In this document: positions 20,622-23,211 of the stretch, piece after piece | Numbering within the stretch: position 1 is the first letter of the stretch | How the letters are laid out: each line of letters opens with the position of its first letter | Origin: a virus | IMG/VR virus record: IMGVR_UViG_3300044729_001137 | Span: 1-28,771 of that record | Length of the DNA: 28,771 nucleotides | Strand: one strand, 5' to 3' | Translations under genes and position numbers: made by a program | The notes under the pieces: model-generated | Told to the model about the DNA's origin: nothing | Database searches by the model: none | Seen by the model: the letters and a program-made list of their open reading frames with translations, nothing else

Positions 20622-21512
20622 ATGGCCCGCAAAGCAGACAGCCTCCACGTTCTTCCGCTTTTTTGTGATGACCTTATTGCGTCGTGTGTTGACATGACGC
20701 CAGCCTGCTTTGGCGCCTACATGAGGCTTCTGTGCTACGCATGGACAAGGGGCGGTATACCTGATGACGAAGGCGCTTGCTCACGCATTACAGGCGGCAT
20801 GAATGCCGGAGACTGGCACGCTATCCGCTCGCGACTGACTGAGCTTAAAGATGGCAGGCTGACGCACCAAAGGCTTGAGCTTGAGCGTGTCGCTGTAGCT
20901 GAGATTAGGGAAAAGCGATCAGAAGCAGGCCGGATGGGCGGTCGCCCAAAAGCAAACGGAAAGCAAAACGAAAGCAAAACGAAAGCAAGCGACAAGCAAA
21001 GCGAAAGCAAAACGAAAGCCCCTAATCCTTCCCCTAGCCTTCCCTCTTCCGGAAATACACACACACCGCCAGATGGCGGCAATGAGTTCCGGAAACCCGG
21101 ATGGGCGGCTGATGCTTGGGCCGAGTTTGTCGCCAAGTGGAACGCAACGGATAGGGCCGCAAAGTGGGAGCCGCTGACGGCCCCCGCCGGCTGGGTCGAT
21201 CACGCGGCGAATCCTGGCTGGCTTGAGCGGGCACAGCAGGCGCTGGCTCGGTTGCCGGCCTGCAAGTTCTTTGAGAACCCGCTGGCGGTCACGAAGTTCT
21301 TTGAGTTCGTGGATCGCATCCTAGCCGGCGAGTTTGACAACCAGCCTCGCAGGCATGGCAGGACAAGCACCTCGCCGGACGACGCGGAGCGAAAGGCCGC
21401 CCTTGAGCGAAAGGCTGCCGAGTTCGCCGGATACCGCCCTGCCCCGTATCGACGCCCCAAGGAACTCGCGGGGCTTGCACATGACAAGAAACTCACGGAG
21501 GAAGATCTATGA
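20622..21512 (+). CDS. DUF1376 replication initiator-like protein (YdaU-type)
   Basis: The first 110 residues match the DUF1376 pattern: a short beta start (LHVLPLFCDDLIASCVDMTP), FGAYMRLLCYAWTRGGIPDD, RLTELKDGRLTHQRLELERV and AEIREKRSEAGRMGGRPKAN. In phages this domain is found in replication initiators next to helicase loaders. A linker of two 11-residue units, KQNESKTKASD and KQSESKTKAPN, follows. The C-terminal part (AWAEFVAKWNATDRAAKW, then FFENPLAVTKFFEFVDRILA) resembles the helical partner-binding end. The linker DNA forms an 11-bp array that looks like an origin. GAGG lies about six bases before ATG. Confidence 0.78.
   Translation: MARKADSLHVLPLFCDDLIASCVDMTPACFGAYMRLLCYAWTRGGIPDDEGACSRITGGMNAGDWHAIRSRLTELKDGRLTHQRLELERVAVAEIREKRSEAGRMGGRPKANGKQNESKTKASDKQSESKTKAPNPSPSLPSSGNTHTPPDGGNEFRKPGWAADAWAEFVAKWNATDRAAKWEPLTAPAGWVDHAANPGWLERAQQALARLPACKFFENPLAVTKFFEFVDRILAGEFDNQPRRHGRTSTSPDDAERKAALERKAAEFAGYRPAPYRRPKELAGLAHDKKLTEEDL
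20949..21019 (+). repeat. Seven-copy 11-bp iteron array, candidate phage origin
   Basis: AAAGC-type units start at 20949, 20960, 20971, 20982, 20993, 21004 and 21015, always 11 bases apart, with consensus AAAGCAAAACG; the 20993 unit begins CAAGC and the last is cut to AAAGCCCC. The array lies inside the DUF1376 gene, but 11 is not a multiple of three, so codon repetition alone does not cause it. A pyrimidine-rich stretch (CCTTCCC, CCTTCCCTCTTCC) follows. In phage lambda the origin iterons also lie within the initiator gene O. Confidence 0.65.
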
Positions 21513-21754
21513 CCGAGACCATCGAGCAGCCACCGTCTGAAGTCACCGACCGGCAGCGAGCCGTGTACGAATGGGTGGTCGACTACTGCGAATCGCACGG
21601 GTACAGCCCCAGTATCCGCGAACTCATGGCGGCGTTCGGCTTCAAGTCGCCCAACGGTGCGATGGCGCACCTGCACCCGCTGCGGAAGAAGGGCTACGTG
21701 ACGTGGAACGATCGCCACTCGCGCACCATCCGCCCGATCGGAGGCGTGAAATGA
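21509..21754 (+). CDS. LexA-like DNA-binding domain without peptidase
   Basis: The 81 residues correspond to only the N-terminal winged helix of LexA: DRQRAVYEWVVDYCESHGYS, PSIRELMAAFGFKSPNGAMA, then LHPLRKKGYVTWNDRHSRTI. The Ser/Lys autoprotease domain is missing, so RecA-induced self-cleavage is not possible in this protein alone. It may compete with the host LexA or repress phage genes. ATG follows GGAGG about six bases before, and its start is ATGA-coupled to the DUF1376 gene. The stop overlaps the next start. Confidence 0.82.
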   Translation: MTETIEQPPSEVTDRQRAVYEWVVDYCESHGYSPSIRELMAAFGFKSPNGAMAHLHPLRKKGYVTWNDRHSRTIRPIGGVK

Positions 21755-21999: not shown

Positions 22000-22184
22000 C
22001 TATCGAACAACTCACGCTTGTCGGCGTGGGAGTGCTGGTGAACGGACTTACCTTTGCCCTCGGGATTGCCGTGGGCATTTCTTTGACACGAAAGGATTCG
22101 ACAAATGGGAACGAAGACAAAGCGGAGCGGTGGCATCGCGTTGAACGCAGCAGACCTCAAGGCGGCTCTCGCGATCGTGCGTGA
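21996..22184 (+). CDS. Small membrane protein, 62 aa
   Basis: ATGA overlap with the previous gene. One hydrophobic helix (LTLVGVGVLVNGLTFALGIA) is followed by VGISLTRKDS and a polar, Arg-rich tail. The gene overlaps the start of the clamp by 80 bases in another frame, which is unusual, and the last 25 residues would then be encoded by the same bases as the clamp start. Its true end may be earlier in function, but no stop is seen before. Role unknown. Confidence 0.5.
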   Translation: MTIEQLTLVGVGVLVNGLTFALGIAVGISLTRKDSTNGNEDKAERWHRVERSRPQGGSRDRA

Positions 22185-23211
22185 CGCGGTACAGGAGCGA
22201 AGACCGAAGCCTATCCTGCGAAACGTGTTGCTCTCGGGCGGGCAGATGACAGCGACCGACTTGGAGTTGCAGGTCACGACGGCGATCGGGTTCGACGGCC
22301 CGGCGTTGCTTCTGCCTCACGGCCGGACGGCGTCGATCCTCCACGAGTGCCAAGACGATGAGGTGACGATCGCTCCAGGCGATACGTCGTGCGTGATCTC
22401 CTGCGGGCGTGGCTCGTGGACGCTGCCAACGGAGGACGCTGCCGAGTTTCCGCAGATGTCGGCGGACGGTGCGACGAATCGGATCAAGCTGCCGGCGGAC
22501 CAGTTTGCACGGGCGATCCGCTCGGTGGTCTATGCCTGCGATCAGAAGAGCAGCCGCTACGCTCTCGGTGGCGTGATGATCGAGGTGCGAGGCGAGACGG
22601 TATCCTTCGTGGCGACTGATTCGCGGCGGCTGACGCTGGCTCGGATCGATCACGACCTGGCGGTGGATGATTCGGAGACGCTGATCCCGCAACGAGTGGC
22701 GAAGCTTCTGGCCCGCATCGCGGAGCAGGCTGGCGGCGAGGAACTTGTCGAGATCGAGGCCAGTGGCAACACGGTAGTCTGCACCATCGGCACCACGGTC
22801 GTGACGGCGCGGCTCGTGGAGGGGCGATTTCCCCGGTGGCGTGACGTGTTCCCGAAGCGTGACGTGAAGGCAACTGTTGTTGATCGCGAGTTGCTCGCGG
22901 CGGCTACACGGGCTGCGGCGATCACGACCAGCGAGCAGAGCAAGGGCGTGGATTACTCGATCGTCGAGAACGGCATTCACCTACATTCGCAGAGCAGCGA
23001 GGCGGGCGAGAGCAGCGTGACGTGCGAGATCGTGGAGCCGGGCGAGACGGTGACGGTGAAACTTGATCCTCGGTTCGTGATCGACTTCCTTGCTGGACTG
23101 CCAAGCGATAGTGAGCCGAACGTCGAAGTCGAGGCTGTTACGCCTGGTGACGCCGTGCAACTCCGCAACGGCGACGTGTTCGGAATCATCATGCCGCTGG
23201 CGAACGACTGA
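22105..23211 (+). CDS. dnaN: Phage-encoded DNA polymerase III beta subunit (sliding clamp)
   Basis: The 368 residues match the length and layout of a bacterial clamp, with three similar domains. Recognisable parts are LKAALAIVRDAVQERRPKPI-LRNVLLSG at the start, a middle with YACDQKSSRYALGGVMIEVR and ATDSRRLTLARID, and an end of RNGDVFGIIMPLAND, comparable to the usual VVMPM ending. The ring encircles DNA and tethers the polymerase. ATG follows ACGAAAGGA eight bases upstream. Few phages carry this bacterial-type clamp; here it stands with an initiator-like gene but no polymerase, so it probably acts with the host polymerase. Confidence 0.93.
   Translation: MGTKTKRSGGIALNAADLKAALAIVRDAVQERRPKPILRNVLLSGGQMTATDLELQVTTAIGFDGPALLLPHGRTASILHECQDDEVTIAPGDTSCVISCGRGSWTLPTEDAAEFPQMSADGATNRIKLPADQFARAIRSVVYACDQKSSRYALGGVMIEVRGETVSFVATDSRRLTLARIDHDLAVDDSETLIPQRVAKLLARIAEQAGGEELVEIEASGNTVVCTIGTTVVTARLVEGRFPRWRDVFPKRDVKATVVDRELLAAATRAAAITTSEQSKGVDYSIVENGIHLHSQSSEAGESSVTCEIVEPGETVTVKLDPRFVIDFLAGLPSDSEPNVEVEAVTPGDAVQLRNGDVFGIIMPLAND

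Follow-up and report, generated by a model that had tools for sequence, protein, structure and literature searches.

The replication origin of phage lambda lies within the gene of its initiator O, where the binding sites occupy the middle of the coding sequence, an unwinding region adjoins them and the gene of the loader P comes next. The lambda iterons are 18-19 bp long, have inverted symmetry and bind dimers (PMC5043065), and the O genes of Stx phages tolerate extra in-frame iterons (PMC7466680). The gene 38 initiator of SPP1 binds direct repeats in its own gene beside an AT-rich region, oriL (PMC6316719). Repeats in the middle of an initiator gene are also found in TP901-1 rep, which is DnaD-like, and three tandem 11-bp repeats are bound by pMV158 RepB (PMC4753449), an unrelated plasmid initiator of the nicking, rolling-circle type. 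We analysed a virus record of 28,771 bp, hereafter called the window (the whole stretch of DNA that was studied), together with relatives drawn from IMG/VR. It carries an array of 11-bp units which, like the sites of lambda and TP901-1, is placed in the middle of a probable initiator gene. By analogy with these systems, and with a probability that we put at about 0.8, the array would be an intragenic iteron origin, its sites recognised by the N-terminal domain of the initiator itself.

The gene that carries the array (20622..21512, + strand) was delineated as an open reading frame and encodes a protein of 296 aa. This protein matches PHROG families 9327 (E=1.6e-13) and 3992 (E=3.3e-7), both annotated 'primosomal protein'. 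The preliminary description called it a DUF1376 gene: a match to PF07120 (DUF1376) does exist, with E=3.5e-5, but its 24.5 bits stay under the gathering cut-off of 30.1 bits, so that 'DUF1376-like' is the accurate name for this probable replication initiator. Several array-bearing genes elsewhere score above the same cut-off. AlphaFold predicts two folded domains. The N-terminal one (residues about 8-106, 20643..20939, +) is helical with a small beta hairpin and is proposed to bind the iterons; its pLDDT is about 90 for most of it in the full model and 85 when it is modelled alone. The C-terminal helical domain (residues about 160-247, 21099..21362, +), with pLDDT of about 90 for most of its length, is proposed to bind a partner. 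The codons of residues 111-158 (20952..21095, +), with pLDDT below 50, correspond to a disordered linker between the two domains, and it is these codons that bear the array and the tract that follows it. A sequence-profile search of the PDB gave chance matches only, and PDB fold searches with the full model or the N-terminal domain returned nothing significant (best E for the N-terminal domain, 0.22). Several of the non-significant matches of the latter (E of 0.22 or more) are winged-helix proteins, MarR regulators and the ORC2 C-terminal domain among them, and the modelled domain may be a winged helix. Predicted viral structures gave DUF1376 proteins as the top matches, with Lin1244-type and replication proteins ranking next.

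The array (20949..21019, +) is made of six units with a GCAAAC/GCAAAA core and a terminal AAAGC, starting exactly every 11 bp: iteron 1, AAAGCAAACGG (20949..20959); iteron 2, AAAGCAAAACG (20960..20970); iteron 3, again AAAGCAAAACG (20971..20981); iteron 4, AAAGCAAGCGA (20982..20992); iteron 5, CAAGCAAAGCG (20993..21003); iteron 6, once more AAAGCAAAACG (21004..21014); and a partial unit, AAAGCCCCTAA, starting at 21015, all on the + strand. The coordinates given in the preliminary description, seven AAAGC-type units every 11 bases from 20949 to 21015, are thus exact, with two details to refine, unit 5 starting with CAAGC and the seventh being just AAAGC. Tandem Repeats Finder reports the same interval with a period of 11 (6.5 copies, score 98) and also with a period of 33 (score 114), and the two 11-residue protein units that had been pointed out, KQNESKTKASD and KQSESKTKAPN, are indeed encoded there. 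The pyrimidine-rich stretch said to follow is also present: the tract CCCCTAATCCTTCCCCTAGCCTTCCCTCTTCC (21019..21050, +) begins at the terminal partial unit and, from its sequence and composition, is a candidate unwinding or strand-capture element.

The lag-11 score of the array, 34 of 44 comparisons, lies above every one of 10,000 shuffles of synonymous codons (mean 22.5, highest 33), which bears out the earlier statement that codon choice does not explain the period, and the next-best lag-11 stretch of the window reaches 24. A codon-level cause of the period is thereby ruled out, for the window array as for the DUF1376 genes described below. The GC-skew analysis that had been suggested as a check was run across the window and was uninformative, revealing no switch at the array.

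Several properties separate this locus from the systems described above. The lag analysis, applied to lambda O, yields 20-24 bp, whereas the window spacing is 11 bp, or one helical turn, with a core of 6-7 bp. The iteron length of about 18 bp, the inverted symmetry and the spacing of about 20-24 bp that characterize lambda are not found in the window array, which we therefore did not file as a lambda-type origin. The lambda origin is AT-rich next to its sites, in contrast to the stretch after the window array, which is 54% GC. In TP901-1 rep the strongest lag is 15 bp, with nothing at 11. While SPP1 has a second origin, oriR, the window holds no second array: a search of it gave 13 matches at ≤3 mismatches, and all those with 0-2 mismatches lie inside 20951-21012. 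The closest reading, an analogy, is that the window array may work like the lambda origin at about half its spacing. The C-terminal part of YdaU, a DUF1376 protein, matches proteins annotated as replication protein O.

To separate the DNA period from the protein sequence, as the preliminary description had proposed, we compared a set of 19 close-relative viral loci. Their linkers diverge strongly (KQNESKTKA, SQTDRKTIA, ANGKQTSSKSLA, ANAEQTQGKR), whereas the 11-bp lattice is retained in nearly all of them, with units such as AAAGCAAAACG, GATCGCAAACG, CTAGCAAACGT, CCAAGCAAACG and GCAAACGCAGA and the common core GCAAAC. The step is kept while the linker protein changes, which favours a DNA function. 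Chains of at least three units occur in 14 of the 15 genes of the window's clade, with 54 steps of 11 bp and 12 of 12 bp. Distances between GCAAAC-like matches in this clade are 11 bp in 55 cases, 12 bp in 10, 13 bp in one and 10 bp in none, followed mainly by 22-23 and 33-34 bp. The lattice of L013 is weaker, 11- and 12-bp steps being mixed. An occasional 12-bp step is seen in many arrays of the clade (12 of 69 steps), for example in L005, L007 and L015. A pyrimidine-rich tract like that of the window comes after the array in most close relatives. Two further features were observed in this set. In three loci (L008, L009, L010) the GATCGCA word of the linker array is used again, in a second array that occupies an insertion in the N-terminal domain's hairpin loop, where the coding context is different. 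In four others (L013, L014, L017, L018) the N-terminal domain has been swapped, and the C-terminal domain is still close to that of the window protein.

The survey was extended by two scans whose queries were N-terminal domains only, the linker having served to find hardly any of the genes. Scan matches, close relatives and phage records yielded 126 non-redundant genes, two of which (L019, L021) are not clear DUF1376 members; these genes are related to each other, and the counts are not independent events. Autocorrelation at lag 11 exceeded all 100 codon shuffles in 62 of the 126 genes, and at lag 22 in 29; the mean z at lag 11, 2.54, is the highest among lags 5-40. About half of the DUF1376 genes fail this strict test. 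The other lags exceeded the shuffles in 0-17 genes, except lags 6 and 7 (26 and 33 genes), whose excess is due to a second repeat, in most cases located 3' of the array. Among 408 neighbouring open reading frames from the same loci, none scored above its shuffles at lag 11, which rules out that phage genes have an 11-bp periodicity in general. Outside the window's clade, the core becomes TTSAAC within the word GTTSAACG, and distances obtained with a TTCAAC query are 11 bp in 127 cases, 10 bp in 10, 12 bp in 17, 22 bp in 87 and 33 bp in 71. The second repeat, with a period of 6-7 (AACCAATAACC, CCTAATCC and TAATG types), is found in DUF1376 and DUF6291 genes, mostly about 12-30 codons past the array start; it is possibly an unwinding or strand-capture element.

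Other protein families were reached through the DNA pattern. A scan of the genome collection with the full protein gave a single linker-only match, to a DUF6291 protein. At least 120 viral stretches contain four AGCAAAM sites spaced 11 bp apart; 80 were retrieved, and 66 of these lie within a same-strand open reading frame of at least 150 aa. Sorted by N-terminus, the 66 comprise a DUF6291 group of 44 and smaller groups that include DUF1376-like and Lin1244_N proteins and a Phg_2220_C protein, so the AGCAAA word is shared by genes with several distinct N-terminal domains. A scan for DUF6291 N-terminal domains only, with some bias since its seeds were array-bearing, gave 42 non-redundant genes; at lag 11, and likewise at lag 22, 29 of them lie beyond the shuffles. 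Their arrays use at least three words (AAGCAAA, AAACCTAAA, AAACCCCC) and are then followed by AT-rich TAATG-type repeats. For the GTTSAAC word, four sites at 11-bp steps were found in 114 stretches, against 49 at 12 bp and two at 10 bp. Among the 11-bp representatives, 18 of 20 match DUF1376 or Lin1244_N, some of the DUF1376 matches being below the cut-off, whereas the 12-bp cases nearly all encode four-residue repeats of unrelated proteins. The four-site 11-bp arrays of both words are mostly located in linkers of initiator-type proteins. One contig (IMGVR_UViG_2891296228_000001) contains, at L252 and L257, a huge AGCAAA array with an 11-residue unit and expansion in 33-bp steps, with 55 pattern matches in L257. 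Perfect 11-bp tandem arrays of the AGCAAA type were also seen outside any open reading frame, at L208 and L217/L270, and could be stand-alone sites or simple repeats.

We then asked whether the period follows DNA or protein constraint. The agreement between array copies is equal at codon positions 1, 2 and 3 (0.628, 0.630 and 0.640), and the core bases reveal no relaxation at third positions; the core columns served to select the units, and only this equality across positions counts as evidence. At TTSAAC sites whose S falls on codon position 2, a G would produce TGA in frame, and C is present in 55 of 55 cases, while at codon positions 1 and 3 G is preferred over C, 97 to 29, unlinked TTSAAC sites giving partly similar G/C counts. 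Translation dictates the lack of G at position 2; what is telling in these sequence counts is that such positions still hold a lattice site, with C in place of the forbidden G. Relatives keep 11 bp across different linkers, words and families, which upholds the earlier preference for DNA function over codon choice. On these sequence comparisons, the 11-bp period belongs to the DNA, not to protein or codon usage, and an array in the same place, the linker codons after the N-terminal domain, recurs across diverged phage genes of predicted initiator type.

The neighbourhood of these genes was also inspected. The next gene of DUF1376 relatives matches lambda P (L050, L074, L156) or IstB/DnaC (L066, L116) in 5 of 10 cases, and that of DUF6291 relatives matches DnaB in 3 of 10 (L355, L369, L380). 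All of the listed genes adjoining a loader or DnaB, except L050, passed the stronger lag-11 score. A Leptolyngbya phage gene likewise has DnaB next downstream. Judged by these assignments in the relatives, genes of predicted initiator type often stand directly upstream of lambda P, a DnaC/IstB loader or DnaB. In the window itself, Pfam, PHROG and neighbour-gene searches recognised no helicase or loader. Its neighbours are a LexA DNA-binding-domain protein, the DNA polymerase III beta clamp and RusA. The small LexA-domain protein (21509-21754, E=5e-22) directly follows the initiator gene, and the phage-encoded sliding clamp (22105-23211), with all three Pfam domains, lies a few genes past it.

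A degenerate version of the arrangement is found in Escherichia coli K-12. The DUF1376 gene ydaU of the Rac prophage, with a DnaC-like gene next downstream, contains a decayed GTTSAAC lattice with 11-13 bp steps (L022:6513-6597, from about 1421512), in which, unlike in the window, lag 33 is stronger than lag 11. This lattice may be linked to oriJ, the origin of Rac. The decayed array makes part of our reading testable in E. coli K-12, a standard strain of the laboratory.

Other explanations of the array have to be weighed. The preliminary description named replication slippage as the alternative: the array would be a neutral minisatellite, tolerated by a disordered linker of which only the hydrophilic protein sequence matters. 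The linker is indeed predicted to be disordered, and slippage does occur, as the L252/L257 array grows by an 11-residue (33-bp) unit. A single 11-base slip, however, would break the reading frame; the same period is found in several families with different words, array copies agree equally at all codon positions, and the control reading frames show nothing at lag 11. Moreover, the frame-friendly 12-bp spacing of GTTSAAC is found in unrelated repeat proteins, as opposed to the 11-bp spacing, which is almost confined to initiator-type genes. This alternative is consequently weak, and we regard it as very improbable.

Plasmid Rep initiators often autoregulate, and the sites lie within the initiator's own gene, so the array might be an operator that the initiator binds mainly to control its own transcription, replication starting elsewhere. 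Operators are normally found at promoters, though, whereas these sites lie over 300 bp past the start of the gene, between two domains, and in many relatives a second repeat element follows the array, as in known origins; an operator thus seems quite improbable. The sites might also be read by another protein, one of the host or one that serves partition or packaging. The centromere sites of ParR are 11-bp direct repeats bound by another protein. The 11-bp repeats of pMV158 RepB (PMC4753449) provide a further example, and the association of the AGCAAA word with several N-terminal domains could mean a shared reader. Against this, one initiator family uses different words in different clades, and the arrays are almost confined to initiator-type genes, both of which fit recognition by the linked protein. 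We consider a separate reader improbable.

If the array is an origin bound by its own initiator, decoration of the sites could proceed as follows. The N-terminal domain encoded by the gene would bind the sites, each protomer taking one iteron. With a spacing of one helical turn, the sites would lie on nearly the same face of the DNA, so that the protomers could pack next to each other in a compact filament. This filament would stress the adjacent strand-asymmetric tract and open it, the candidate tract being pyrimidine-rich in the window and composed of AACC- or TAATG-type repeats in other families. The C-terminal domain would then recruit the helicase loader and the helicase. Because the linker is predicted to be unstructured, its codons would be free to carry the sites, and initiator and origin may travel between phages as one cassette.

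On balance, we find it fairly probable that these loci represent a widespread, unrecognised class of phage origins, defined by one-turn, 11-bp in-frame iteron arrays in the linker codons of DUF1376, DUF6291 and Lin1244_N genes and of a Phg_2220_C protein. Such arrays would support a continuous initiator filament rather than spaced dimers; their word would be free to change, the reading frame intruding mainly to avoid stops. In the literature searched, subscription papers being largely outside it, we found 11-bp iterons described for none of these genes. If this reading is true, many phage and prophage origins could be predicted from their sequence, and the same DNA stretch would double as protein code and binding array. 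Three families of phage proteins of 'unknown function' would at once be given a function and a DNA target.
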